Shown: positions 29,725-64,000 of the stretch, piece after piece
How positions within the stretch are numbered: position 1 is the first letter of the stretch
How the letters are laid out: each line of letters begins with the position of its first letter
Assembly: GCA_020440825.1 (NCBI GenBank)
Contig: JAGRNJ010000001.1
Coordinates: 1 to 64,000 of the forward strand
Direction of reading: 5' to 3'
DNA length: 64,000 bases
Source: Leptospiraceae bacterium
GTDB taxonomy: Bacteria; Spirochaetota; Leptospiria; Turneriellales; Turneriellaceae
Notes under the pieces: model-generated
Told to the model about the DNA's origin: nothing
What the model saw: only the letters and a program-made list of their open reading frames with translations
Database searches by the model: none
Program-made: the position numbers and the translations under genes

Positions 29725-29753
29725 TTGACAAAAGAGAGCACGTTTGTTATATT
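29725..29753 (+). promoter_or_regulatory. Near-consensus promoter giving a leaderless mRNA
   Basis: TTGACA (29725-29730), a 17-bp spacer and TATATT (29748-29753) match the housekeeping consensus at 11 of 12 positions. The expected start of transcription, six to seven bases after the -10 box, falls on GTG 29760, the start codon required by the MerR domain that follows. Confidence 0.7.
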
Positions 29754-29759
29754 CTTACT

Positions 29760-30557
29760 GTGCAGTACCTGATAAAAGATCTATCGAGGCTAACCGGAAT
29801 CTCTGGTGCAAGAATACGCAAATGGCAAGAGAGGTTCGGGATATTCAGCCCCCAACAGGGAGACAACGGATACTGGTATTATGACAGTGACGATTATCTG
29901 CTGCTGCGCAGTATCGGGAAACGTTTAAGTGAAGGTGAGAAGCTTTCTCACATTATACAGCTTGGTTCAACAAAGCTGCTGCAATCACCCGATGAAGACA
30001 AATTCAATGCTGAAAACTGGGAATTGATCAAGATTATACAAAAAAACAGCCTTCATACCTTGCGCAGAACGTTTGAAGCCCAGTTCCAGAACTCTGGCAT
30101 GAAACCGTTTCTCAAAGATTACCTGCGTCAAAAAATAATTATGGTCGGCGAGGCCTGGAGCCTCGGGCACTTGAGTGTGGCCGAAGAACACTCTTTCACT
30201 CGCTTTATATTCTCGTTTTTATCTGAGAAAATCGCAGATTTACAAACAGATGATACACCGCGCTGGCTGGTTGCCACATTTCCCGATGACCCTCATGAAT
30301 TGGGCGCGTTTATGCATTATTGCCTGCTCTTGCACAAAAAAATTCCGGCAAAATATTGCGGTTCTTTACCCGAAAAATACCTTATCAAAGAGATTGCTTC
30401 TCCCAACTACCAGGTAGTAAGTCTTTCACTGGTTGTTCCCCAGGAGCCTCAAAAGATCCTGGAGCTCAAACAGACAATTATGAAACACCTGCATGTTCGC
30501 AAAGTGATTTTCGGAGGCTACGGGTATACAAAAGTATCCCAGCAGACTGATTTATGA
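29760..30557 (+). CDS. CarH/LitR-type MerR regulator with B12-binding motifs
   Basis: The 265-aa protein has a MerR helix-turn-helix at residues 1-70 (IKDLSRLTGISGARIRKWQE). Its C-terminal half has the CarH cap motif W-x9-EH (Trp133, Glu143, His144) and the cobalamin lower-ligand motif DPHELG (His179). All four sit exactly two residues after the Thermus CarH positions I recall (131, 141, 142, 177). CarH proteins bind adenosylcobalamin as repressor tetramers and release DNA in light. The residue after Trp133 is Ser, where Thermus CarH has His132, the upper ligand of its light-exposed state. It overlaps the amine oxidase gene by four bases and probably controls its own operon. Confidence 0.85.
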   Translation: MQYLIKDLSRLTGISGARIRKWQERFGIFSPQQGDNGYWYYDSDDYLLLRSIGKRLSEGEKLSHIIQLGSTKLLQSPDEDKFNAENWELIKIIQKNSLHTLRRTFEAQFQNSGMKPFLKDYLRQKIIMVGEAWSLGHLSVAEEHSFTRFIFSFLSEKIADLQTDDTPRWLVATFPDDPHELGAFMHYCLLLHKKIPAKYCGSLPEKYLIKEIASPNYQVVSLSLVVPQEPQKILELKQTIMKHLHVRKVIFGGYGYTKVSQQTDL

Positions 30558-31780
30558 AAAAACTGGCAATCATCGGCAGCGGTATCTCAGGAATGGGTAC
30601 CGCATGGCTCCTTAGAGATAAATATGACATTACAGTTTTTGAAAAAAATAATTATGCCGGTGGTCACACCAACACTGTCACAGTTAACGATGAAGGCGGC
30701 GATTTACCGATCGATACAGGCTTTATAGTCTTTAACGATATAACCTATCCCACTCTAATTCGAACCTTTGCAGAGCTCAATGTGACTGTTGAAAACAGTG
30801 ATATGTCTTTCGCCGTACACTCATTAGATTCTGGTTTGCAATTTAATGGATCAAGCCTGAATGGTCTTTTTGCTCAAAGAAAAAATATCTTCAAACCATC
30901 TTACCTGAAATTTTTACTGGCTATCAACAAATTCAATAAGACAGCCCCAAAGCATCTTGAAAACAATCAGGCGAATATGAGGCTTGCTGAATATGTAACC
31001 AAGTTCAACTATCCCGAAAGTTTTATGCAAGATTTTCTGGTGCCTATGGCCTCAGCTGTCTGGTCTACCCCTATAGAGAAAATGGCAGATTTTCCTACCG
31101 CCACCTTGATTCGCTTTTTCCTGAACCATGGTTTCCTGGGGCTCGACACACAATATCAATGGAAAACTGTGTCGGGTGGTTCAATTAACTATATGAACAA
31201 GATTCGTGCAGCATTAAAGAAAGATGTTATCATAAACACACCGGTTAAAAAGATAGTGCGCAAAAATGAAGGTGTGACAATTGTCACACAAGAAGGGGAG
31301 CAGCATTTCGATCTGGCAGTAAGTGCAGTACATGGCGATCAGGTTTTGCCTTTACTCGAAAACCCTACTCCTCTTGAAAAAGAATTGATATCTCCTTTTC
31401 GTTATGAAAAAAATATTGCGATCTTGCACACCGATGAAAGTGTAATGCCGCCCTTAAAAAAAGTATGGTCTGCCTGGAACTACATCAAGCAGGGAAATCT
31501 TTCAACTACAGCATACTTGATGAATAAACTGCAGAACCTGAAAACTAGAAATAATTACTTTGTCTCTATTAACGAATTCAGGAAAATCGATACATCAAAA
31601 ATCATCCGTACAATAGAATATGAACATCCTCTTTTTGACAGAGCAACAGAAGAGGCACAGAAAAGACTGCATGAATTGAACTCATCGGGGCCACTATACT
31701 TTGCAGGAGCCTGGACAAGATACGGTTTTCATGAAGACGGTATGCTCTCTGCAGACAACGTTGCAAAGAGGTTATTATGA
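30554..31780 (+). CDS. FAD-dependent amine oxidase-like oxidoreductase
   Basis: The 408-aa protein has an N-terminal dinucleotide site (KLAIIGSGISGMGTAWLL, residues 2-20), an FAD-contact region GGHTNTV near 38, and a C-terminal FAD segment with PLYFAGAWTRYGFHEDGM near 380. It is the type found beside DUF1365 and cyclopropane-fatty-acid synthase genes in many bacteria, where it is thought to oxidise or desaturate lipid acyl chains. Its start overlaps the regulator gene (ATGA), and its end overlaps DUF1365 in the same way, so the three are translationally coupled. Confidence 0.9.
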   Translation: MKKLAIIGSGISGMGTAWLLRDKYDITVFEKNNYAGGHTNTVTVNDEGGDLPIDTGFIVFNDITYPTLIRTFAELNVTVENSDMSFAVHSLDSGLQFNGSSLNGLFAQRKNIFKPSYLKFLLAINKFNKTAPKHLENNQANMRLAEYVTKFNYPESFMQDFLVPMASAVWSTPIEKMADFPTATLIRFFLNHGFLGLDTQYQWKTVSGGSINYMNKIRAALKKDVIINTPVKKIVRKNEGVTIVTQEGEQHFDLAVSAVHGDQVLPLLENPTPLEKELISPFRYEKNIAILHTDESVMPPLKKVWSAWNYIKQGNLSTTAYLMNKLQNLKTRNNYFVSINEFRKIDTSKIIRTIEYEHPLFDRATEEAQKRLHELNSSGPLYFAGAWTRYGFHEDGMLSADNVAKRLL

Positions 31781-32577
31781 ATTCTTGTCTGTATTCCTGC
31801 GATGTCTTTCACTCCCGCGCAGTAATTAAGAAGAATTCATTTCGCTATAAAATATTTAACTGGTGTATTGATCTTGATGAGCTTGATCTGCTGGGAAAAT
31901 TTTTTCCATTTATAGGAATAAATAAACGCGGATTGTTCTCATTCAAAAATAAAGATTTTTTCAAAGTAAATCCATCCGCCACTACTCTCAAAACTAAAAT
32001 TATTCAATATCTGCGCGAGAATGGCATTAAGAGCAAAGTTGAACAAATTTTTTTAATCACAAATTTGCGGGTCGCAGGCTATACATTCAACCCTGTGAGC
32101 TTTTACTTTTGCTATGGTGCTGACCGTAGACCTTTGGCACTGTTGACAGAAGTAAATAATACCTTTCATGAACAGAAACATTACCTTTTCAAACTCAATA
32201 ACAAGGACGACAGATTTCATTTTCGAACTGCAAAAGAGTTTTATGTTTCTCCGTTTGTAGACATCGATACTGATTTTGAATTCAACGTACGACTGCCAGA
32301 AGATCATTTGTTCATACAAATCGACTCTATGCGGGGTAAACAGCTCGAATTGCATGCAGTAATCAGAGGAGAAAAGCGGAAAATCAGTATTCCAAGAGTG
32401 CTGTGGTTTTTTGTCAGTATGCCTTTTGTAACCTTCAAGATAATCGCCGCCATACATTGGCAGGCATTCAAATTATACCTGAAACAGGTGCCGTTTTTCA
32501 AAAAAGATGAAGCTGACACCAGACTCAGATCCCTTGAATTTAATAATAAACTCAATAATAATCTCAGGAGAAAATAA
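31777..32577 (+). CDS. DUF1365 family protein
   Basis: The 266-aa protein matches DUF1365. It opens with YSCDVFHSRAVIKKNSFRYK, and typical segments are RVAGYTFNPVSFYFCYG near residue 105, LLTEVNNTFHEQKHYLF near 125, and FYVSPFVDIDTDFEF near 160. No biochemical activity is established. It is nearly always encoded between an amine-oxidase-like flavoprotein and a cyclopropane-fatty-acid synthase, as here, so it presumably acts in the same lipid modification. It overlaps both neighbours (four bases and one base). Confidence 0.92.
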   Translation: MNSCLYSCDVFHSRAVIKKNSFRYKIFNWCIDLDELDLLGKFFPFIGINKRGLFSFKNKDFFKVNPSATTLKTKIIQYLRENGIKSKVEQIFLITNLRVAGYTFNPVSFYFCYGADRRPLALLTEVNNTFHEQKHYLFKLNNKDDRFHFRTAKEFYVSPFVDIDTDFEFNVRLPEDHLFIQIDSMRGKQLELHAVIRGEKRKISIPRVLWFFVSMPFVTFKIIAAIHWQAFKLYLKQVPFFKKDEADTRLRSLEFNNKLNNNLRRK

Positions 32578-33887
32578 TGAAAACAACCAATAACGAAACG
32601 ACGGCTATAGATTCCGGATCTGTTTCACTGCAGACAACAGAAGCAAAATCAGGATTTTATGAGTCCCTGTTCAGAAAAGCGATGGGCAATGCGAAAGAGG
32701 GACAAATGAGTGTGCTGATACCCGGCGGGCGCAGCTTTACCCTGGGAGAAGCAAAGCCCGGCAAACAGAATGCAGTTCTCGAAGTAAAAGACGTGCACTT
32801 TTTTCAACATGCGGTATTATACGGGGAAATTGGTTTCGGCGAGACCTACATTGAAGGGATGATCGATTCACCAGATATGCTGAGGGTTTTACGCTGGTTT
32901 GTTGATAACGCAGTCGCAACCCCTGGTTTTGCAGCGGCGGGCAAGAAACTCTTTGTGAACATACTGGGTATCGCCAATAAAATTCGTCACACCTTACGTC
33001 CGAACACTGTCAAAATTGCCCGTAAAAATATAGCCGAACACTATGACTTGAGTAATGAGATGTATGAATATATGCTCGGCTCAAGTATGGCATATTCTTC
33101 GGGATTGTTTTTAACGGGAAAAGAAGACCTTAAAACTGCACAAGAAAACAAATTTGAAAGTCTTTGTCAAAAGCTGCAGCTAAAGCCCGGCCTGCATATG
33201 CTTGAGATTGGTTCAGGTTGGGCAGGTTTTGCAATTTATGCAGCTAAAAAATATGGTGTAAAAATAACTACGATCACAATTTCTGAGAAACAGTTTGATT
33301 ATTGCAAGAAGAGAATTGAAGAAGAAAATCTGCAATCTCTTATCGAGCTAAAGCTGATTGATTATCGGCACATTGATGGTCAATATGACAGAATCGTATC
33401 TATTGAAATGGTTGAGGCACTGGGCTTTCGTTATTTCGATACGTATTTTGGTAAAATGGCATCTTTACTCAAGAAAGACGGGCTAATGGCCATACAGGCA
33501 ATTACAATGCCTGACACCAGATTTTCGAATTACATAAAGGGCGAGTCAGATTTTATTCAAAAACATATTTTCCCGGGCTCTTGTCTACTTTCTCAAAATG
33601 AGATTACAAGGTCTCTTTTGCGAACCAGTGATCTGAATATTTACCATTCAGAATCAATGGCTATGAGCTATACCCGTACTCTGGCAGAATGGCGAAAAAA
33701 TTTCAATGAAAATATTGAAGAGATTAGAAAAATGGGATTCAGTGAGCGGTTCATTCGAAAATGGAATTACTACCTGCTGTATTGCGAAGCAGGGTTTGGT
33801 TCTCGCTATATCAATGTAATACAGTTATTGTTCTCAAGACCGCAAAATACTCAATTACAGGATTTTCATGGGCTTAAAAATCAGTAA
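32577..33887 (+). CDS. Cyclopropane-fatty-acyl-phospholipid synthase family
   Basis: The 436-aa SAM-dependent enzyme modifies unsaturated acyl chains of membrane phospholipids. It shows the motif-I loop LHMLEIGSGWAGFAIYAAKK near residue 205, NIAEHYDLSNEMYEYML near 150, the catalytic-region FIQKHIFPGSCLLS near 320, and YYLLYCEAGFGSRYINVIQ at the C-terminus, all typical of Cfa proteins. Whether it makes cyclopropane rings or methylated acyl chains cannot be told; some relatives in such clusters lead to methylated or furan fatty acids. It begins on the last base of the DUF1365 stop and overlaps the next gene by 20 bases. Confidence 0.93.
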   Translation: MKTTNNETTAIDSGSVSLQTTEAKSGFYESLFRKAMGNAKEGQMSVLIPGGRSFTLGEAKPGKQNAVLEVKDVHFFQHAVLYGEIGFGETYIEGMIDSPDMLRVLRWFVDNAVATPGFAAAGKKLFVNILGIANKIRHTLRPNTVKIARKNIAEHYDLSNEMYEYMLGSSMAYSSGLFLTGKEDLKTAQENKFESLCQKLQLKPGLHMLEIGSGWAGFAIYAAKKYGVKITTITISEKQFDYCKKRIEEENLQSLIELKLIDYRHIDGQYDRIVSIEMVEALGFRYFDTYFGKMASLLKKDGLMAIQAITMPDTRFSNYIKGESDFIQKHIFPGSCLLSQNEITRSLLRTSDLNIYHSESMAMSYTRTLAEWRKNFNENIEEIRKMGFSERFIRKWNYYLLYCEAGFGSRYINVIQLLFSRPQNTQLQDFHGLKNQ

Positions 33888-34617
33888 AAAAAGGTTTACA
33901 TTTACTGCAGCCCTTGCTTTGCTTATCGTTTCGGGCTTTCTCTATGCTCAGGCCCAGGAGCGAAAATTCGTGCAAGGCGTTGCAGTAGATGCGAAAACAA
34001 ATAAAATTGCCTACTACGAAAACCACAATGAAGTATACAAAGACGGTTCGCATATTTATTCTAATGTTTTTTATAAATCTGCAACCGGCGATCTGATTTC
34101 TAAGAAATACATTTCTTTTACTAAATCAAGAATAGCACCCGACTACATTAAAAATAATGTTGTAACCGGAGGTTTTGAAAGTTCAACAAACCTTGGAAAC
34201 GGTAAGTTTTTGTTTAAAAACCAGGACAGTAAAGAAGATTCCCTCGAACAAAAGGTTGTGCAGATTTCTGGCACAACCGTAGTAGACGGAGGGTTTGATT
34301 TTTTTGTGCGGGACAACTGGCAAGAACTGATGAGCGGCAAGAAAATGATTGTAAATTTTGCAATTCCGGCACGTCTCGATTATTACAGCTTCAGAATCTA
34401 TAAAAGCGCGACCTCTACTCATCGGGGTCGCCCGTGCGCAGTGATCACTGTTGATATCAACAGTGCCGTATTGCGGCTTGTTGCAGATGGCCTCACAATT
34501 AAATATGATCTCGAAACTAAAAGACTGCTCAACTATAAAGGTGTTTCGAATATTGCCTCAAATAGTGGAAAAAATTATGTCGCCGATATCTCTTTTGACC
34601 CGAAATACTATAAATAG
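33868..34617 (+). CDS. Exported protein linked to the lipid-modification operon
   Basis: The 249-aa product starts MGLKISKKRFTFTAALALLIVSG, a signal peptide ending near AQAQE. The mature part looks beta-rich (YYENHNEVYKDGSHIYSNVF, RKFVQGVAVDAKTN). I recognise no named family with confidence. It overlaps the 3' end of the cyclopropane synthase gene by 20 bases, which ties it to that operon. A periplasmic lipid-handling or binding role is a guess. Confidence 0.65.
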   Translation: MGLKISKKRFTFTAALALLIVSGFLYAQAQERKFVQGVAVDAKTNKIAYYENHNEVYKDGSHIYSNVFYKSATGDLISKKYISFTKSRIAPDYIKNNVVTGGFESSTNLGNGKFLFKNQDSKEDSLEQKVVQISGTTVVDGGFDFFVRDNWQELMSGKKMIVNFAIPARLDYYSFRIYKSATSTHRGRPCAVITVDINSAVLRLVADGLTIKYDLETKRLLNYKGVSNIASNSGKNYVADISFDPKYYK

Positions 34618-34629
34618 ACTACTAAAACT

Positions 34630-35346
34630 ATGAGAAAAACCGTATTAACCGCTTTTATTTTATGCATGGGTATGATGTTGATGCTTCATTGTGCGTCAGT
34701 ACCTTCAGGAGCTGCCGGCCCTCAGGCTGAAGAATTGACAGATAAAATGCTTGAAGCAGCGGGAATGCAACAGTGGAAACAGACTGCCGCGGTATCATTT
34801 ACATTCAGCAATGGAGACCAGATCTTTTGGGATAAAAACCGGGATCTCGTTGAAGTAATTTCTGATGAAATCAAAGTACAGTTAAGAAAGTCTGACTTTA
34901 AAGCAATCGCTCTCTCTGGTGAAGAGATCTTGCAGGGCGAAAAACGAAAAGAGGCAATTGATGATGCATGGGCAAAATTTATCAATCATACCTTTTGGCT
35001 TTCTCCCATGTTTCATGCAAGATCTCCCGGGGCTGTTCGAGAATACCAAGATGGTCAATTGATCGTAAAGTTCAGTTCGGGAGGGGTTACTCCGGGCGAT
35101 ACATACCTGTTCATGCCTAAATCTGATTTCAAAATAGACAAAATGCAAATGTGGGTCGATGTCATCCCGATAAAGGGTGCTGTTGCAGAATTCTTAAATT
35201 ACACCGTAACCGAGACTGGCGTACCCATTGCACTCACCAGAGAAATGAGTTTGGTCAATATCAATATTGAAAATCTAAAGATGTTTGCCAAGTATCCTGT
35301 CTCTGCTGAAACAGACAGATTCAGTGCTTTGTTGTCTGACAATTGA
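34630..35346 (+). CDS. Lipoprotein of unknown function
   Basis: The 238-aa product has a lipoprotein signal, MRKTVLTAFILCMGMMLMLHCAS, with lipidation at Cys21. The mature protein, with FTFSNGDQIFWDKNRDLVEV, YQDGQLIVKFSSGG and DTYLFMPKSDFKIDKMQMWV, has the look of a LolA/LolB-like antiparallel sheet that could carry a lipid, but this is only a resemblance. It follows the previous gene by 12 bases and closes the operon. It converges on uppS across a 22-base gap. Confidence 0.65.
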   Translation: MRKTVLTAFILCMGMMLMLHCASVPSGAAGPQAEELTDKMLEAAGMQQWKQTAAVSFTFSNGDQIFWDKNRDLVEVISDEIKVQLRKSDFKAIALSGEEILQGEKRKEAIDDAWAKFINHTFWLSPMFHARSPGAVREYQDGQLIVKFSSGGVTPGDTYLFMPKSDFKIDKMQMWVDVIPIKGAVAEFLNYTVTETGVPIALTREMSLVNINIENLKMFAKYPVSAETDRFSALLSDN

Positions 35347-53860: not shown

Positions 53861-56800
53861 TTATTTTATCACTGCAATTTTGACTGTTTTCTTGTAACCT
53901 CCGGCCTCCATGACCAGATAATAGATGCCGCTGGCAACGGTCATACCCGCATCATTTCGGCCATCCCAGAACACACGTTGACGGGAAATAATTTCACTTT
54001 CTTTGAAAGCTTTGACCAGAACCCCTGAGACGGTATAGATATGCAGGGTAATCCCTCCGTCATGACCGACCAGATCAAACCTGATTTCTGTTTTCTGACC
54101 AATTGCGGGGTTAAAAGGATTCGGGAAATTCTGATACAGCTGAATGCCTTTGCCAACCGTAAAGATACCCATATTGCCGAGATCTGTAACTGAATCATTT
54201 CTCGCGATCATATCACCATTGGCTGTGAGTCCCGATATTTCAACATAGTCACCTACTTTAGAAACATTCGTACCGGTCACAGTTGCTGAAACCTGACAGG
54301 CTCCTGTCGCATCACAGTTTATCGGTGTTTGAATATTGAACTGTTCTTTATCGCTGACCTCTGCCCCCGGGGTCTTGCGGCTTTCAACCCGCAATATTCT
54401 CAGATTCAAAGGTGAAATTGCAGAAGGCACCAGAGTTCCATTGAAAGCAGTACCATCAGCATACCCAAGCCGAAGATTAAAACGTATGGTTTCACCTAAA
54501 GACACCACAGGGGGATCAATCGAAACAAATTTTGCAAGCAGATTTGCCTGCAGCACAGAAAACTGGTAGTTGCTCAGAGGTGAAAGAGCCGGCAGATGGT
54601 TTAAGATATCTGTCTCTGCATTTGTATGATCAAATGGTGAGACGGCAGAGCCCTTTGCTATACCGATCGAATACCCGCCCTGCAGGTTCGCCATCGCAAG
54701 AGCAGTTACCTTGACTGACCAGCAGGTAGCCACACCGCCACAAAGTGAGCTGTCATTGATCAGCTGCGGCACAGTCGTATTGAAATTTGAACTTTGTGAT
54801 GCATTCACGGGGTCATCATACAATACTCTAAATGAGTGATTTGCAGCTTCAGCCGAATTGAGATCAACATCAGTACCATTAGGATACATGAGGCTGTAAT
54901 AATAGTCTGTACCCACCCCGTCATGGCGGGCAACTGATGCCAGAGATCGACCATGTATTCTTACATTCAATACGGCAGGAATCACCTCAAATACGCCGTT
55001 GATATTTCCCAGTCCTGATTGCGTATTGAAATTGGGTGCCGTCGGGGTATCAACATTGATATTTGATTCAATTTCAATCATGCGGCCCAAAGAACCGGCG
55101 GCAACCAGATCTTTCTGCACACTTATGTAGTAGCCTGTTGTTCTATTTGTATCTTTCGTGGACGTTATAGTAACTGCCCAGCACGATCCTGCCGCCTGGC
55201 AGCCGGCATCTGCCCCATACACAGGATCAGCAACGGAAAACTCTTGCGTTGATGGTAAAGTACCGGTAGGAGTAAACGTATCACCCCGCCATGCCACGGG
55301 ATTTCCGGCCGAATTTTTTACGGTTATCCAATGCAAACCTGAGGTTGCCTGATCATCTTCAAGTGCTGCCGCATTTATGCTGCCGGCATCTCTTGCGGTT
55401 TTCCAGTTGAATATTCTGTAATAGTATGTGGTCGATAACGTTCTCTGTACCTGTGACGTTGAACGTGATAGGAATTCAATGCGCAATATAAATTCTACAA
55501 CCTCGAATTCACCTTCATTGACACCTAATCCCGTATTTAGAGCCTGATTGCAATTCTGGTTTTGCGCATCGGTACATGCTGCATCAAAATAATTTGAGGC
55601 TAGTGGGGCAAGGGTATCCGCACCTGCAGCACTGCGGGAGATTCTTACATGTACCGGTTCGTTGGGAGAGGCATTCGTTAATGCATCTAAGCCAAAAGTC
55701 CACTCGCCTGCAACATATGTTGGCACATCAACATTGAAGAAAGAGGTTTCATCGGCCAGACTGCCGCTCAATCGAATCTGTACGTTATATGTTCCACTGG
55801 TTTCTTCAGTACCATCGGGATAAAACATCCGGAACGTATAAATGCTTCGCACAGGCGGGGCCGAATCTTTTTCAATTCTGGCCTCTCCCCGTGTGAGAAA
55901 TTGAGCGTGCAATGCTGCATACTGAACTTCAAAACTGCCGTTGCCGGCTCCTAAGCCGCTGGCAAGACCTATATTGCCATTGACCGGCGCGACGGGGGCG
56001 TCAGACAAATAGGCCGGCAACACATCTGGCCGGGTAACATTGCCTGTTTTTGCAATTTTTAAAGCAAAGTCATTCGCCGGAATGCGCGTTGAAACAGCCT
56101 TTATTTCTGTAAACCAGGCACCATTGCCAGAATCGGCCGCAGCATCATACTGGGCATTGGCAAATTGAAAGTCACTGCTGACATCAATGTTTCCCGGTCG
56201 CTCAATATTGAACACAAAGTCGGTAGGGTCGATTTCAGCAGCAAGGGCCTGGGTAACGTTATCAGGATACAGTACTCTAAAATTATAACGCATTCGCTGC
56301 ACATCATTGGTGCCGCGATAAATCGCTGTGGCAGAAGGTAAGGCGGATGCATTTTCTCGCGATAAATATACAATGCGCAGAGTTGCCGGGGTTATCTCAA
56401 ATTCACCGCCTGCAATTCCTGCACCGAGAGCACCATCGGTTGCGGTACCAATTGGTTCATTCGAGATTTTTGCATTGGCAGCAAGAATTCTGTCTCCATC
56501 GGTTCCTGCCAGTTTGTGAACTGAAATTCGATAGTCATTGGCAGTCGTTGTCGCTTTACTAGCCGTGATATCAACCGACCAGGTCTGGGTGGTAGTTTCA
56601 TACACCGGGGTGGCAACAGTAAAGTTAGAAGTGGTATTTGCATCCGTACTGTCACTGGAATTCAATACTGTTATTTGAAGATCGGTTGCTGTAACACCAG
56701 CGTCAGTTTTGACTGCCCCGTCTTCATAATATAGCTGAAAATAGTAGGTAATTCCGGTTCCGTCCTGGCGTTCAAAAACATTGTCTTGCGTTAAATCATC

Positions 56801-59800
56801 AAAACTGGTTTTTACATATTTAACGTTGAGCAAAGCACCCTGCACTTCAAATTCCCCCTGTGCCGGGGCAAGTCCGGTTCCCAGACCTGTATTGCCTTCA
56901 CTGTCGGGGGTAGTAGAGGCGTTTGAATTATATGAAGGCAGTGAATCACCAGTGTTGCCCGCAGTTTTTTCTATCTCAACAAAATATCCGGGTTCAATCA
57001 CTGCATTGTTCAAAGCATAAAAATCAATTATATAAGCATCTGTATCATAGGTCACTGCAAGGGGATTCGAAAAATCAGATGAGCGGTCTTGCACTGCCGC
57101 ATTTCGAATTATCGGGTTAAATGAGGCCGCATCCGTTTCTTCTGCCGGGGTCAGCTCTGTACCGTCAGGGTAATACACATTAAAGCGGATCACTGTATTG
57201 CTCGCAGAAGTTCCCCGTGATAAGGAAGCATTCGATCGACTCGCATAGACAATATGCAAAGCCGCATTGGTTACTTCAAAGTCTCCCTGGTCTGGACCAA
57301 TTCCCAACCCTGCTCCTAACCCCTGGTTTCCATTCACATCGGGGGTTGTAGAAGAACGTGCTGCGTATCCGTTCATTAAATCGGGGTCTGCTGGTATTCC
57401 GGATTTAATTATTTCTACACTGTAATCATTGGCAACGTCAGTGAGTACTCCGCCCGTATTTTTTACCCTTGCTCGTATATCGACAGACCATTTCGCAGTG
57501 GCATCATACACAGGATTCGATACTGTAAAAAATGGCGATACATCAGTATTGCTGCCGTCTATTATTCGTGCCGAGTAATTTGCTGAATTGGTATTGGTAT
57601 TGGTCGCCTCAGTCGTCAAGTCAGGGTACATGAGTCGATACCGGTATTGAATCGCTTCAGAGGCAGCAGTACCGCGCTCAATGGATGAGGTAGAGGCAGT
57701 AGTCGAACGACCCAGCCATACGATTCGAAGTGTGGCCGGTTGAACTTCAAACTCTCCGTTTAAATTGTGTGTGGCCAGGTCTTCACCGAGACCCCCTTGC
57801 CAGGTATCCACACTCGGTGCCACTGAACTGCGGGGAGTTGCAACAGTATCCCCGTCACTGCCGGCTGCTTTTGTAAGATCTACTCGATAACCATTAGCCA
57901 CTGGTGTATCGAACCGGGAGCGTAAGGTTATGCGCCAGCAATCGGTCAGGGTTCCTCCACAGCTGGCTGCCCCATAATTACCATACTCCAGAACCGGAGC
58001 TTCAAAATCGCCAGTCACATCTGCATTTGCGATACTCAAAACTCTGACATTAAAGCCATCTACCGTTCCACCTGAAGTATCAGTTTTCACATCAAATGAC
58101 GGTGAATCATTATAATGCAAGGTCAGATAATAGAGAATCCCTGTACCATCTTGTCTCTCAAATCGATTGGCAGCGGGAACTGCCGAGAACGAAGTTCCGT
58201 GATATTTGACCAGCAACTCTGCGCCCAGTATTTCAAATGTACCACCGGGATCACCAAGGCCAGCATTCCCGGTAACCGGCACGGTCGGGGCATTCGAGGC
58301 ATAATCTGGTAGAATGTCAGGAACGTTTGTATCAGCCGTTCTGTTTACTTCTATATAATAGCCGTTTTGAACTATTGCACCGCCAGAGGGTCGCAGTCTT
58401 ACTTCCCAAAAACCGGAATCATACCTCAAATGATCTGCAGCACTGAAACCTGTCGCGGTTTCAAACTGTGAATCTGCCCAGCGATAAAACTGCATTCCTG
58501 AAGTTACATCAACTGCAGAACGCAATACTCTCAGTGAATAACTTGTACGATCGGCTGCACTGGTTTCTTCAGAGCCGTTTTTATAGTTCACCTTCCAGCG
58601 ATAAATAATTGTATCACCCACATTATTCTCGAGCTTGGCAACCTGGCGCGATACCGGGTTCAAAGACGAATAGACGATCGCAAGGGTAGCCGGGTTAACC
58701 CTGAAATCACCGCCGGTAAGATCAACCAGGCCGGGGTTCAAACCGATGTGATAGTCAGGTAAACTGCCTGATGGCACATTAGAATTGTGTGAAGAAAATG
58801 TCGCAGGCGAAGTACCGGCCGCAGATTTTGCCAACCGCAAATAATATGTATCTTCAGGGGTAGAGTAAGCCGCTGAAACAGAAGTCTCCCAGAGAGTAGA
58901 CCCCGCATTCCAAAGAGTAGTTACACCTGCAAAATCTGTCGTTGCATCGGAATTGTCTGAAGTTCTATGAACACTGGCATTAAAATTAGAAGGATCTTCA
59001 TCACTGCCAACCTCAAATTCATGCAATGCAGCATTTGCATCTTCATTGATGTCATAGGCAAGTCTGAATTGATACACGATCTGAGCTGTATCTGCACGCT
59101 CGATTTCAAATGAAGTCCGCTGCACAAATTTGATATTCAAGGTTGCTTCGGTTATTGCGAAGAGGGACGCACTTTCATCGGCACCAACGGCAAGGCCTCG
59201 ATGAAATGTGTTTGCCGGAGCATCAGAGCCATCGGCCTGCAATTTAGCCGAAACATTCGCTACTGTATCTCCTTCGCCTCCCACTGCTTTTGCAATTCGA
59301 ACTGAATAACCTGCCGCCGCAGTCGAAGCTTTTCGGGGAATCAGTGTAAAACGGTAGCGATCTGTATCATATAGCAGACCCGATACAGAGAAGAGATTAT
59401 TGCTTCCCACTTGATCTGCACCCGTTAAGCTAAACGATTCGATAACGGTATCTGTTGAATCAATTACCTCGAGGGAATAGCCCGAGTCATCGGTCTCCCG
59501 GGTGGCAGTGGCCTCACCAACTACATTAACATCATCATAGAATGCGATAAACTCATATTCAGGAGCCAGTGCCCGGGCTGCACCTTTTTCTGCCGATGCA
59601 TTATTTCGCTGTACAAAGCGAATATTTAATGTGGCAGGCAATACATCAAATTCACCACCTGTATTGATGCCAGTATCGAGGCCTCCCGCAACAGGGGTAC
59701 CCGTAGCTGCATCAGAGTAGGCTCTATTCGCAGGCAGTATAATATCGCCATCGGTGCCATTTCCTTTTTCGATTCCCAGACGATAATTTACACTAAAATC

Positions 59801-62800
59801 AGCTGTATCTGTTGCCAGCACTCTCGCCTGCCAGAACCCGCCTGCCGTAAATACGATATTGTCAATCGTAAAACCGGTGGCAGAAGTAGTCTGACCGACT
59901 GCAAAGGCGGCATTATTAAAACCATCGAGAGTGGGGTTCCAGTCATCCCGTTCGAGCCCATCGGGATAAAACAGTCGATACTGATACGTTATCCCGATGC
60001 CATCTGCGCGCTCAAACTGATTTTGAGTAGTTGCATTGGTAATATCAAAACTTGTATTCAAATATTTCACAGTCAGGTTTGCACCCGAGACTTCAAAAGT
60101 TCCATTTGCTCCCAAACCGATATTGCCGAGCACATCTGGCGTTGTCGCAGCATTGCTTGCAATTGGGTTTAGATAATCTGCCATTGCATAGGTCGGATGA
60201 CTTACTACATTTGCAGTTGCACGCTCAATGGTCACATAGATTCCGCTGCCCAGTACTGCATCTCTTCGAGGTCGAAATGCAATCTGCCAGCGGGTCGAGC
60301 CGTTATCAAATCTCAAATGATCTGTCGGGTTAAACGACTGGTGAGGCAGGTGAGCACCATCACTTTCAAAAGCTGTTGTGGTCCAGTTATAAAAATCAAA
60401 GCTTGAAGTAATTTCAGTATTGGCAGAATCAAAAATTCGAATACCATAATCATTTCTATTTGCTGTGACAGCTTCTTCAGAACCATTTTTATAGAAAACA
60501 TTAAAACTGACAGTAATTGCATCAGCAAGATCTGGTTCTTTTCTCTGCACGATTCTGGCAGTGTTTTCAAGAGGTGCATATACAATATTCAATTGAGCAG
60601 GCAAAATTTCAAAAATGCCGTTGACTAACCCCAGACCGAAACTGCCGGGAGTCAAAGTATCAACACTCGGGGTTATCGAGGCTTTTGATGAATATTCTAC
60701 CAGCTCTGAAAAAGTGGAACCGGCTGATTTTTCAATTGTTACATAATATCCCGGTTCAGGTATCGCATTGAGACTTGTACGAATCGTAACCGACCAGCCG
60801 GTGGCCGCAGCAAAACTGAAGGTTGGTTCATTGTCTGCAAGAAATGAATTGGATGCAGTTGAGCGTAGGGTATCTGTTGAGTCGAATAAATTAATTTTGA
60901 GCGAGGTCTCTCCGTCTGGATGCATAAACTCCAGATTATTCTTGTAGAACATTCGAAAGCGAAAAGTAATACCGACTGTATCTCCCTTCTCTGACTGATC
61001 AGGAGTACGCGAAGCATATTCTATTCTCAGCACAGCATTTTTAACATCAAAGCGTCCGTTGACTGCCCCCAGACCTGTCGAACCAAACGCATCGGGACCT
61101 GTATCTTTACTGGTAAAAGCAGGATCAATCGTGTCACGGTTGCCAGTCGTAGAATTTTTTGTGATCCCAAGATATCGATCTGCCCCGGCATCGACAGAGA
61201 TTCCCGCCAACATGGTTAACCCCCAGCAAGGGTTCCCATCGGTACATTCTGTTGTACCATGTGCGAGATAAGTGGGGTTGCCGCCATCAATTGCAAAGCC
61301 GCTGGTTGTTATATCATTATCGGTATTATCAAAGATGCGATACGAAATTCCTGTCGCATTAAATGAGGCTAGACCAGGCTCGAACTGGGTACCATCATCA
61401 TAGAAAATGCGGTAATAATATTGTACGCCTATTACATCTCCTTTTTCTATCTCATTATTGATACGGTTTAAATAAACTATACGCAAAGAAGCATCTGTAA
61501 CTTCGAATTCCCGGTCTGTTTTAGAAGAAAATGGAATCATCGCTGCCCCGGTTCCCCAGGAAGCATATTCAATCGTAACATAAAAAGCAGGACCGGTCGA
61601 AGAGGTATGCAATGCCCGTAGATCAACGCTGTACTCATCACCGGTCAAATTGACAGTGATCGGTTCAAATTCTGATGTTACATCTACATCAGGAGTTGCC
61701 GTTCTAAACACACGAACTGTAAACAGTGCCGGGTCAACTGCTGGGCTCGATACATCTGTCAATGCGGTAGCAGAGTCATTATTGAATACATTAAAGACAA
61801 ATCTGGTTCTGTCAGAATCTGCCGCTCGCTGCTCCATAACCGGGTTTACGACACTGATACTTGCTAGATCGATTCTCAGGTTTGTTACATCAAAATTCCC
61901 ATCGGTGAGAGCACCGGCAGGATCATTCTGTGAGGCAACCGGTGTCTGTATCTTATCAATTGCTCCATTTTTACGAATCGAGATATAATAATCCTGCGCA
62001 ACCCCCGCGTTATTCAAGGCAGATACATTGACTGACCATTTTGAGACCGCATTGTATACCGGGTCAGAAATGTTCCAGTCTGCCGAGCCAAGGGTCATTG
62101 AGTATGATGTTCCGTTTCCTGTTTTAGTGGCAACAATTGTTGAATCAGATGCATGTACATTGATTTCATAATCAAGGTCATCTGTTTCTTCTGTCACTGT
62201 ATCTGCGTATGTGACCAGGTAATTGAACGTAATTCCTGTACTATCATTTCTTCTCTGAGATTCGCGATCTTTTGCAGAATATTCTAATGTAAGATTATTC
62301 TCATAATTTACCTCAAAAATACCGTCTGTCGCGCCTAAGGCAGCAAATGGAATCCCGCCTACATTTTCATTCACAGATTTTGATTTGTAAGGTGTATCAC
62401 TTAAGCCGGCAAACGACGGGTTTAAGATATCTTCTCGCCCTGCCCCAACCCCGGTTGTTTTTTCAACTACAGTATAGAAGAAAACAGGGTCTGTAACATC
62501 ATTAGCCCGAATATTCCACTGGTAACAGGATCCTGCTCCCCCGCAATTGGCTGCTCCATGATTTCCAAATACCGGGTTTGCAAGAATGAACTGGCTGGTC
62601 GCAGAAGTATCATCAGCATTTCGTGCAACATTGATAGACAGATTGTCATCCGATACTGCTGAATTAAACTCTGTACCATTCTTGTAAAATAACCTGAAAA
62701 AGAAATTTGTACCTACACCATCGGCCCTTCGTATTTGTGCTGTATCGCGCAGAGTATATTGAATATAAAGATTGGCGGGGGTTACTGCAAATGTACCGGC

Positions 62801-64000
62801 TGCCCCTAAATTTGAAGCATCATTAGAATTACGGGCTGCATTCGTATTTTCAATATAATCAGATGCCGGTGCTGCAGGGTTCCCTCGAGAGACTCTCACC
62901 AGATAATTGGCTGCTATACGGGCATAATTTGTCGCTGAATCAATAATTGATTTAGCCCGTACCTTAACCCGCCACCTTGAATTGACTGCATCCCAGGCTG
63001 CGACCGGTGCAGCAACTTCGCCATCAGCTGCATCCAGACCGTTAAACCACACACTTCGGTTTGTACCTCCCTGCCGAATTTGAATAGCAATCTGGGTTCC
63101 ACCGATATTGGCATTGGTAAGCTTATAGACAGGATTCGGATACAAAATTTCGAACGGAAATTCAGTAAGATTCGCAGTTAAATCTTTTCTCTCCATAGTC
63201 GGGTTAACCGGAGGTAAGAAAGAAACAGTCAAAGGAGCATACGTTACGGTAAAACGGCCTGCAGTTCCGAGATCGACATTCGAAAATTCTGGCAGCAGGG
63301 TATCCCCACTGGTTCCTCCATTTGATTTTCGAATTTCAACCCGATAAAATTGCGAGCCGGTTGTTACCGGGGTGTCGGGGCGCGCCGCAATTTCTACCCG
63401 CCAGTTATTATTTACAGAATCCCAGGTAATTCCGGTGGGAGGGGAAATATCAAACAATGCAGTATGATTGGCAATATCTGAAACTCCTGAATTGAGCCAG
63501 ATCGCAACGGAGTACTCATTTGCATCTACATTTTGCTCTTCACCGGTCAGATCTGCAACATTATTGTCGTAGCGAACTGAAAACCTGTATTCAATATTGC
63601 TGGCTAAAGCATTTCCCCGGGTAATCGTTCGGGTTGCGGCGTTATCGAGATTATTAAGACTCAATGATACCAGATTTAGCGTTGCATTGCTGACCCCGAA
63701 ACGCCGACGGGTTGTATTTGCATCGACTGCCTCAACAATATTGTCCTGTGAAGTTGAACCGGCATTTTTCGACAGGGCAATGTAGTAATCACCAATATCA
63801 GTCTCTTTGAGGGTTCTGAGGTAAAAAGTATACTGATGATCAGGTGCACCTGAATGGGTAATGGATGTTATTGAAAACTGTGTGCCTGTTGAAGGAAAAG
63901 TAGTAAATGACTCCACAACACTGTCATCTGATACTCGGCGTACATCGACCTGCATTCCTGTCATGTCTCCGCCTGTAAAAAGCGTATTCAATGCATCCGG
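53861..64000 (-). CDS. Giant repetitive exported protein, N-terminus off window
   Basis: One uninterrupted frame runs from the right edge to the stop at 53861, more than 3,370 residues. It consists of about 20 tandem beta-rich units of some 150 residues. Each opens with a pattern like GEFEVxPATLxIxY, followed by a short acidic/Arg stretch and FRxFYxDGTE, and closes near GYYVxIxK. The last 100 residues are an FlgD-Ig/T9SS-type sorting-like domain (LYQNFPNPFNP, then LHIYTVSGVLVKAF and ASGIYYLVMEAGG). Some units carry a short Cys pair before a conserved Trp. It is most likely a secreted or surface-anchored fibre or adhesin. The start lies outside the window. Confidence 0.85.
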   Translation of the reverse strand, partial: PDALNTLFTGGDMTGMQVDVRRVSDDSVVESFTTFPSTGTQFSITSITHSGAPDHQYTFYLRTLKETDIGDYYIALSKNAGSTSQDNIVEAVDANTTRRRFGVSNATLNLVSLSLNNLDNAATRTITRGNALASNIEYRFSVRYDNNVADLTGEEQNVDANEYSVAIWLNSGVSDIANHTALFDISPPTGITWDSVNNNWRVEIAARPDTPVTTGSQFYRVEIRKSNGGTSGDTLLPEFSNVDLGTAGRFTVTYAPLTVSFLPPVNPTMERKDLTANLTEFPFEILYPNPVYKLTNANIGGTQIAIQIRQGGTNRSVWFNGLDAADGEVAAPVAAWDAVNSRWRVKVRAKSIIDSATNYARIAANYLVRVSRGNPAAPASDYIENTNAARNSNDASNLGAAGTFAVTPANLYIQYTLRDTAQIRRADGVGTNFFFRLFYKNGTEFNSAVSDDNLSINVARNADDTSATSQFILANPVFGNHGAANCGGAGSCYQWNIRANDVTDPVFFYTVVEKTTGVGAGREDILNPSFAGLSDTPYKSKSVNENVGGIPFAALGATDGIFEVNYENNLTLEYSAKDRESQRRNDSTGITFNYLVTYADTVTEETDDLDYEINVHASDSTIVATKTGNGTSYSMTLGSADWNISDPVYNAVSKWSVNVSALNNAGVAQDYYISIRKNGAIDKIQTPVASQNDPAGALTDGNFDVTNLRIDLASISVVNPVMEQRAADSDRTRFVFNVFNNDSATALTDVSSPAVDPALFTVRVFRTATPDVDVTSEFEPITVNLTGDEYSVDLRALHTSSTGPAFYVTIEYASWGTGAAMIPFSSKTDREFEVTDASLRIVYLNRINNEIEKGDVIGVQYYYRIFYDDGTQFEPGLASFNATGISYRIFDNTDNDITTSGFAIDGGNPTYLAHGTTECTDGNPCWGLTMLAGISVDAGADRYLGITKNSTTGNRDTIDPAFTSKDTGPDAFGSTGLGAVNGRFDVKNAVLRIEYASRTPDQSEKGDTVGITFRFRMFYKNNLEFMHPDGETSLKINLFDSTDTLRSTASNSFLADNEPTFSFAAATGWSVTIRTSLNAIPEPGYYVTIEKSAGSTFSELVEYSSKASITPSVDTLTPGSFGLGLVNGIFEILPAQLNIVYAPLENTARIVQRKEPDLADAITVSFNVFYKNGSEEAVTANRNDYGIRIFDSANTEITSSFDFYNWTTTAFESDGAHLPHQSFNPTDHLRFDNGSTRWQIAFRPRRDAVLGSGIYVTIERATANVVSHPTYAMADYLNPIASNAATTPDVLGNIGLGANGTFEVSGANLTVKYLNTSFDITNATTQNQFERADGIGITYQYRLFYPDGLERDDWNPTLDGFNNAAFAVGQTTSATGFTIDNIVFTAGGFWQARVLATDTADFSVNYRLGIEKGNGTDGDIILPANRAYSDAATGTPVAGGLDTGINTGGEFDVLPATLNIRFVQRNNASAEKGAARALAPEYEFIAFYDDVNVVGEATATRETDDSGYSLEVIDSTDTVIESFSLTGADQVGSNNLFSVSGLLYDTDRYRFTLIPRKASTAAAGYSVRIAKAVGGEGDTVANVSAKLQADGSDAPANTFHRGLAVGADESASLFAITEATLNIKFVQRTSFEIERADTAQIVYQFRLAYDINEDANAALHEFEVGSDEDPSNFNASVHRTSDNSDATTDFAGVTTLWNAGSTLWETSVSAAYSTPEDTYYLRLAKSAAGTSPATFSSHNSNVPSGSLPDYHIGLNPGLVDLTGGDFRVNPATLAIVYSSLNPVSRQVAKLENNVGDTIIYRWKVNYKNGSEETSAADRTSYSLRVLRSAVDVTSGMQFYRWADSQFETATGFSAADHLRYDSGFWEVRLRPSGGAIVQNGYYIEVNRTADTNVPDILPDYASNAPTVPVTGNAGLGDPGGTFEILGAELLVKYHGTSFSAVPAANRFERQDGTGILYYLTLHYNDSPSFDVKTDTSGGTVDGFNVRVLSIANADVTGDFEAPVLEYGNYGAASCGGTLTDCWRITLRSRFDTPVANGYRVDLTKAAGSDGDTVATPRSSVAPSVDTWQGGLGEDLATHNLNGEFEVQPATLRIVWLGRSTTASTSSIERGTAASEAIQYRYRLMYPDLTTEATNTNTNSANYSARIIDGSNTDVSPFFTVSNPVYDATAKWSVDIRARVKNTGGVLTDVANDYSVEIIKSGIPADPDLMNGYAARSSTTPDVNGNQGLGAGLGIGPDQGDFEVTNAALHIVYASRSNASLSRGTSASNTVIRFNVYYPDGTELTPAEETDAASFNPIIRNAAVQDRSSDFSNPLAVTYDTDAYIIDFYALNNAVIEPGYFVEIEKTAGNTGDSLPSYNSNASTTPDSEGNTGLGTGLAPAQGEFEVQGALLNVKYVKTSFDDLTQDNVFERQDGTGITYYFQLYYEDGAVKTDAGVTATDLQITVLNSSDSTDANTTSNFTVATPVYETTTQTWSVDITASKATTTANDYRISVHKLAGTDGDRILAANAKISNEPIGTATDGALGAGIAGGEFEITPATLRIVYLSRENASALPSATAIYRGTNDVQRMRYNFRVLYPDNVTQALAAEIDPTDFVFNIERPGNIDVSSDFQFANAQYDAAADSGNGAWFTEIKAVSTRIPANDFALKIAKTGNVTRPDVLPAYLSDAPVAPVNGNIGLASGLGAGNGSFEVQYAALHAQFLTRGEARIEKDSAPPVRSIYTFRMFYPDGTEETSGTYNVQIRLSGSLADETSFFNVDVPTYVAGEWTFGLDALTNASPNEPVHVRISRSAAGADTLAPLASNYFDAACTDAQNQNCNQALNTGLGVNEGEFEVVEFILRIEFLSRSTSQVQRTLSTTYYYRIFNWKTARDAGSINAAALEDDQATSGLHWITVKNSAGNPVAWRGDTFTPTGTLPSTQEFSVADPVYGADAGCQAAGSCWAVTITSTKDTNRTTGYYISVQKDLVAAGSLGRMIEIESNINVDTPTAPNFNTQSGLGNINGVFEVIPAVLNVRIHGRSLASVARHDGVGTDYYYSLMYPNGTDVDLNSAEAANHSFRVLYDDPVNASQSSNFNTTVPQLINDSSLCGGVATCWSVKVTALAMANLQGGYSIGIAKGSAVSPFDHTNAETDILNHLPALSPLSNYQFSVLQANLLAKFVSIDPPVVSLGETIRFNLRLGYADGTAFNGTLVPSAISPLNLRILRVESRKTPGAEVSDKEQFNIQTPINCDATGACQVSATVTGTNVSKVGDYVEISGLTANGDMIARNDSVTDLGNMGIFTVGKGIQLYQNFPNPFNPAIGQKTEIRFDLVGHDGGITLHIYTVSGVLVKAFKESEIISRQRVFWDGRNDAGMTVASGIYYLVMEAGGYKKTVKIAVIK
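54160..63260 (-). repeat. Array of about 20 tandem protein repeats
   Basis: Unit openings of the type G-x-F-E-V-x-x-A-x-L appear at about 63250, 62795, 62318, 61890, 61505, 61040, 60612, 60097, 59648, 59153, 58707, 58232, 57753, 57282, 56858, 56402, 55932, 55507, 54993 and 54558, with the final one near 54162 leading into the C-terminal domain. Mean spacing is about 454 bases. The units are divergent at DNA level, so the array is old and stable rather than a recent expansion. Units near 60097, 58232 and 56858 share a VKY..TSF..FER.DG.GI opening, which hints at a three-unit higher-order period. Confidence 0.7.

Follow-up and report, generated by a model that had tools for sequence, protein, structure and literature searches.

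Furan fatty acids are formed in Rhodobacter sphaeroides by three enzymes that are sufficient for the pathway: the methyl group is placed on cis-vaccenate by UfaM, the flavoprotein UfaD, a relative of phytoene desaturases, then yields the methylated diene, and the DUF1365 protein UfaO adds O2, from which the furan fatty acid results (PMC7380195). In Rhodopseudomonas palustris, the genes RPA2571-2570-2569, in the order D-O-M, are proven for furan fatty acids, and FufM, a distant (26%) relative of UfaM, adds a second methyl group to the furan (PMC7380195). The light-induced ufaM gene of Pseudomonas putida is controlled by LitR (PMC9758184), and Pseudomonas thus provides a precedent for light induction of ufa genes under LitR, by a route that does not depend on B12. 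In CarH of Thermus thermophilus (TtCarH), His132 is the cobalt ligand of the light state, and this ligation couples photochemistry to conformational change (PMC10442372). Herein, we analyzed a 64,000-nucleotide window (positions 1 to 64,000 of contig JAGRNJ010000001.1, assembly GCA_020440825.1) from a Leptospiraceae bacterium, in which a gene for a MerR-type regulator of the LitR/CarH family heads a run of six genes behind a 33-bp inverted repeat. The comparisons below favor, with some reserve, a light-responsive, self-regulated repressor switch of the CarH/LitR type over a furan-fatty-acid operon.

The upstream regions of the regulator genes have in common the dyad TTTGTC(A/C)AANG-N11-CNTT(T/G)GACAAA. 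It has a single match in the window, ahead of the operon (Table 1), with 0.25 expected by chance. The right arm of this site is at the same time the −35 box of the regulator promoter, and position 29725, where the first-pass annotation of this DNA had let the locus begin, coincides exactly with that box. As the −35 box lies within the operator, RNA polymerase is predicted to be occluded when the site is occupied. A second site with two mismatches was found on the same contig (C85:84754-84786), 28 bp before a DUF1295 gene (83932-84726, minus strand). The −10 boxes, 17 bp after the −35 boxes, read TATATT and TATTTT, respectively, and the start codon follows the −10 box by ~7-9 nt at both sites and likewise in several relatives, so that a leaderless or nearly leaderless mRNA is predicted; for the regulator, transcription would start at about 29760, directly at the GTG codon. 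In relatives, most regulator promoters likewise have the right arm as their −35 box, with a deviation in Turneriella-type operons that begin with Cfa2, where the dyad reaches into the start codon. The remaining matches examined in this genome (2-3 mismatches) lie within open reading frames (ORFs) and were taken as chance. The TGTACA-N12-TGTACA repeats of class II LitR were also considered and did not fit, their sequence being different. An inverted repeat of 33 bp that supplies the −35 box with its right arm, shared with light-related genes of relatives, is new.

Table 1 Features of the regulator-ufa locus, with positions in the window
Feature	Position	Strand	Basis or remark
Putative operator, 33-bp inverted repeat TTTGGCAAAGG-N11-GATTTGACAAA	29700..29732	+	Best whole-genome match, 1 mismatch
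Predicted sigma-70 promoter TTGACA-N17-TATATT, extended −10	29725..29753	+	11/12 consensus matches
MerR-type regulator, LitR/CarH family, 265 aa, GTG start	29760..30557	+	MerR_1, PDB match, AlphaFold2/Foldseek
UfaD-like flavoprotein (flavin adenine dinucleotide amine oxidase/desaturase type)	30554..31780	+	PF01593; weak CrtD/HpnE similarity
UfaO-like DUF1365 protein, candidate O2-dependent furan-forming enzyme	31777..32577	+	PF07103, E 1.8e-69
UfaM-like Cfa-family S-adenosylmethionine fatty-acyl methyltransferase	32577..33887	+	PF02353 (CMAS), E 7.4e-81
X1, exported beta-rich protein	33868..34617	+	Conserved beside the operon in several relatives
X2, predicted lipoprotein, last gene of the run	34630..35346	+	Lipobox-like N-terminus

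Ten regulator promoters served to build a dyad matrix, which was run with a cut-off of 18 bits over 736 kb of sequence surrounding regulator, BLUF, photolyase and related genes. Dozens of matches reached at least 18 bits, not all of them independent as several loci came from the same species as the training sites, and none appeared in the reversed sequence. Most lay 26-32 bp before the start codons of regulator, photolyase, BLUF-cyclase, DUF1295/Cfa2, MFS and X1 genes; the BLUF, MFS, DUF1295, Cfa2 and X1 sites had not been used for training, unless a divergent regulator gene shared them. When counted gene by gene, the dyad preceded 10 of 21 BLUF-cyclase genes versus 0 of 21 adenosyltransferase genes (p = 5e-4) and six of 23 photolyase genes; at five of these six, the site is common to the photolyase and a divergent regulator gene. 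Of 1500 random 350-bp windows drawn from these loci, 20 contained it, real sites included. Whole-genome scans of relatives added few further sites: before genes for UvrA (G085), a fatty-acid desaturase (G048), a lipocalin (G172) and a second photolyase-family protein (G090, the site overlapping the ORF start), and before an operon of a small ORF (85 aa), photoactive yellow protein (PYP; PDB match, E = 6.6e-32) and an AMP-binding enzyme (L223, G048:C37, 2766-3509). Matches at G048 C26, G055 2658692 and G202 C315 were not counted as targets because of their coding or repeat-like positions. A further dyad-like site stands 32 bp before a predicted lipoprotein that by eye resembles SOUL haem-binding proteins (L241, G196:C421:9128-9160).

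Because the operator precedes photoreceptor and photorepair genes in relatives, the light reading is supported independently of the protein motifs. We therefore consider light control of the ufa operon, as the first-pass annotation had predicted, to be likely, and light very probably turns the operon on through an operator shared with light-response genes of related species.

Of 296 genomes in the phylum, 28 carry the regulator, all within one class, and 40 carry DUF1365; in a second collection, the named regulator matches were mostly Leptospiraceae or Leptospirales assemblies. The nearest relatives are Leptospiraceae and Turneriella-type genomes, in agreement with the earlier description of the bacterium as spirochaete-like. 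Nearly all regulator genes adjoin ufaD, mostly with ufaO and ufaM behind it, and the block recurs, usually contiguous, across the class Leptospiria. In the Leptospira family, ufaDOM also persists in some genomes that lack the regulator. Since the regulator-ufaD neighborhood recurs in most regulator-bearing Leptospiria genomes, the operon reported in the first pass is real and its arrangement is not due to chance. Strict dyad sites (0 mismatches) occurred in 8 of 28 regulator-bearing versus 0 of 20 other genomes of the class (p = 0.014), and sites with one mismatch in 15 of 28 versus 5 of 20 (p = 0.07). That the dyad belongs to another regulator, with the MerR protein a mere passenger in the operon, would explain why the strict dyad was not seen in some regulator-bearing genomes. 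We regard this as very doubtful: strict sites were confined to genomes with the regulator, most relatives searched for the dyad have it ahead of the regulator gene or the operon to which that gene belongs, and each arm carries a TnnACA-like half-site, as in the CarH element.

The regulator comprises a MerR helix-turn-helix, a four-helix bundle and a Rossmann domain, the domain set of the LitR/CarH family. By sequence it is a CarH homologue, matching Pfam MerR_1 (E = 1e-10) and, over its full length, TtCarH (PDB 5c8d, E = 3.5e-17). Its AlphaFold2 model (mean predicted local distance difference test score 89.6) had TtCarH (5c8e) as the best Foldseek match (E = 1.4e-12), with a TM score of ~0.7 and a root-mean-square deviation of 2.5-3 A over the cobalamin-binding domain, so that the structural comparison with Thermus CarH proposed in the first pass came out as expected. 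Trp133, Glu143, His144 and His179, which had been read from the sequence, are present and align to W131, E141, H142 and H177 of TtCarH, whose sequence for the residue and tree comparisons was translated from a Thermus plasmid record. In an alignment of 19 sequences, W133, E143, H179 and G130 were invariant and H144 nearly so, and the DxHxxG and GG motifs are kept. From the light-responsive cobalamin signature (PMC11796333), GxxW is present as GEAW and EH as EEH. A cob(I)alamin adenosyltransferase gene is present here and accompanies the regulator in 27 of 28 genomes, versus 13 of 20 genomes without the regulator. In this genome, its gene lies head-to-head with a DNA photolyase gene (C77:56351-57447, L132), ~25-45 bp apart and with no dyad between them; G048 and G055 have these genes at distant positions. 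As no operator stands in front of either, both were ruled out as regulon members here. Taken together, identity as a B12 photoreceptor is plausible, and direct sensing of adenosylcobalamin by the regulator appears somewhat better founded than the contrary.

Several observations weigh against this picture of a B12-dependent light switch. The signature element GxxH is replaced by DDPH (GDxH in most relatives), GxxxP by G-SLP, one residue short, and His132 of TtCarH by Ser134, a non-histidine in relatives too; the CarH fold and the axial and adenosyl-contact residues agree with the first-pass claim, but these motifs are not kept as in TtCarH. No B12-binding domain of Pfam was detected at E 0.001, and the C-terminus is short. 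The homologue in G048 (L014) lacks the Trp131 equivalent, yet its genome keeps several operator sites. The operator does not fit the tandem 11-bp direct repeats of CarH (nnnnTnnACAn), being an inverted repeat instead, and B12-independent LitR and CarA relatives exist. As to light, no BLUF gene was found in this genome (3.78 Mb, 173 contigs, 88% complete) and its photolyase gene has no operator, so that the light link for this genome rests on relatives. BLUF (19 of 28 versus 1 of 20, p = 1.5e-5) and photolyase genes (19 of 28 versus 3 of 20, p = 4e-4) do co-occur with the regulator, with p-values that ignore phylogeny and shared ancestry. Considering that the H132A variant of TtCarH keeps adenosylcobalamin binding with an altered light response (PMC10442372), loss of His132 is compatible with sensing but implies a different coupling.

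These substitutions, and the G048 homologue without the Trp, would also suit light control without B12, in which a class II LitR- or BluR-like repressor with a vestigial B12 pocket is relieved by a BLUF, LOV or PYP-type partner. The class II LitR PmlR2 is inactivated by a short LOV protein (PMC9758184), and BLUF and PYP genes bear the operator in relatives. This explanation is unlikely, though it deserves attention: the invariance of G130, W133, E143 and H179 is unexpected for a vestigial pocket, adenosyltransferase co-occurs with the regulator, and a BLUF partner is not general, as no BLUF gene was found in this genome at 88% completeness. Alternatively, the regulator may sense the adenosylcobalamin level or the oxidative or redox state, and B12 shortage or reactive oxygen would then induce furan lipids together with repair genes. 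Cobalamin ligation is redox-sensitive (PMC10442372), and the Rhodobacter ufa genes answer singlet oxygen through ChrR (PMC7380195); with light acting through LitR in Pseudomonas, the earlier statement that related proteobacterial sets respond to light or singlet oxygen is borne out. The targets in relatives include specifically light-related genes (photolyase, BLUF cyclase and PYP), and we hold this alternative to be improbable.

The six ORFs were confirmed, all on the plus strand, with the regulator gene first and tight packing. The first three junctions overlap by 4 nt (ATGA, 30554), 4 nt (ATGA, 31777) and 1 nt (32577), as had been noted, but the fourth overlaps by 20 nt (33868-33887) and X2 begins 12 nt past X1. 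The overlaps suggest translational coupling and not the fusion that the first-pass wording implied. Its "lipid-modification operon" was right but imprecise: contiguous genes for a flavoprotein, a DUF1365 protein and a Cfa-type enzyme form the Ufa gene set, and the trio is best read as ufaD-ufaO-ufaM of the furan-fatty-acid pathway. The UfaD-like protein (Pfam Amino_oxidase, E = 1e-21) is 41-43% identical to flavoproteins of proteobacterial ufa clusters and the UfaM-like protein 35-37% to their Cfa-type enzyme, and the three enzymes together are 31-43% identical to their Burkholderia and Azoarcus counterparts. The function of the UfaO-like protein was assigned by family from PMC7380195. Synthesis of ordinary cyclopropane or methyl-branched acids, with other roles for the flavoprotein and DUF1365 protein, would agree with the closest NCBIfam equivalog, a cyclopropane synthase, which scored below its cut-off (265 of 400 bits), and orthology to the characterized R. 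sphaeroides and R. palustris Ufa enzymes was assigned by family, gene order and neighborhood. The trio and its order match RPA2571-2569 of R. palustris; we therefore dropped the cyclopropane assignment, now considered rather unlikely, in favor of UfaD, UfaO and UfaM.

The N-terminus resembles a signal peptide in one of the last two proteins and a lipobox (MLHC) in the other; neither matched Pfam, and X2 had no NCBIfam match either. Homologues of X1 beside the operon in relatives are 28-35% identical, and its model (score 84.9) weakly matched the fold of DUF1849. X2 may belong to the operon, judging by spacing and strand only. The DUF1295 operon behind the second operator also holds a Cfa-family methyltransferase gene (82880-83914), whose product is 51% identical to a Burkholderia anthina ufa-cluster enzyme and 27% to UfaM of the window; that it corresponds to FufM is only a suggestion. 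In another spirochaete family (L031-L036 and L038), DUF1365 and the Cfa-type methyltransferase form a single frame of ~660-720 aa behind ufaD, a natural UfaO-UfaM fusion. At L061 and L062, genes for an AMP-binding enzyme and an aromatic amino acid lyase, enzyme kinds that make the PYP chromophore, lie downstream of the ufa operon, and PYP itself was not found there. Elsewhere in the window, the minus strand encodes a 3376-aa repetitive protein (53861-63991) with a C-terminal segment resembling a secretion or sorting signal.

Returning to the preferred switch, the regulator, of CarH/LitR type and probably carrying adenosylcobalamin bound via His179, would in the dark occupy the inverted repeat over its own −35 box and block RNA polymerase. 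Light would break the Co-C bond and loosen the repressor assembly, and a transcript from at or near the GTG start would supply the regulator, UfaD, UfaO, UfaM and two envelope proteins. UfaM would methylate an unsaturated phospholipid acyl chain, UfaD would desaturate it and UfaO would insert O2, giving a furan fatty acid that may scavenge oxidants. The second operator would add the DUF1295 protein and the further Cfa-family methyltransferase.

Reported light effects in Leptospiria have to do with motility and with adenylyl cyclases: one study, which places the motility of Leptospira kobayashii under light control, also cites photoactivated cyclases from Turneriella parva and Leptonema illini (PMC9043183). 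A transcriptional light response is now predicted across Leptospiria and would be linked to furan fatty acids, which are antioxidant lipids. In the open-access literature (subscription journals being mostly outside its scope), we found no report of a CarH/LitR regulon or furan fatty acids for spirochaetes, in line with the first-pass impression for a spirochaete-like bacterium. Tentatively, we propose a spirochaete clade of adenosylcobalamin photoreceptors with no His132 switch and an inverted operator, whose light regulon would extend throughout the lineage and take in furan lipids, photorepair and further photoreceptors (BLUF cyclase, PYP). If so, one photoreceptor would control the supply of others. 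The explicit 33-bp operator and target list make the light prediction testable in T. parva, a non-pathogenic species available in culture, and a CarH-like sensor without His132 would be a natural test of how cobalamin photochemistry couples to DNA release.

Compared with known systems, the enzymes are of the same three families as in Rhodobacter and Rhodopseudomonas, in the D-O-M order of R. palustris and likewise with a second, distant Cfa-type methyltransferase, whereas the Rhodobacter genes respond to singlet oxygen via RpoE/ChrR, and RpoE/ChrR-type genes head ufa clusters. The B. anthina cluster also unites DUF1295, the similar methyltransferase and ufaDOM, but is accompanied by a sigma/anti-sigma pair. 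In Azoarcus, ufaD-ufaO-ufaM face a divergent MerR gene, and the product of the latter belongs to another LitR clade. Class II LitR of Pseudomonas (PplR/PmlR2) similarly represses light-induced genes, including ufaM and photolyase; unlike the candidate B12 sensor described here, it needs no B12, works with a short LOV protein on its own type of operator and has a degenerate second cobalamin domain, where the present regulator keeps DxHxxG and GG. TtCarH (class I LitR) shares the domain architecture, the W, E, H and axial H residues and a −35 box inside the operator, and its gene lies near photolyase in Thermus. In the tree, which contained no Pseudomonas class II LitR sequence, the Leptospiria regulators formed one clade with a long stem (support 100/100), separate from TtCarH, proteobacterial LitR and Polyangiaceae sequences. 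Besides lacking His132, they differ from TtCarH in that the latter binds three tandem 11-bp repeats and controls carotenoid genes, whereas the regulator here faces an inverted 33-bp repeat and lipid genes.

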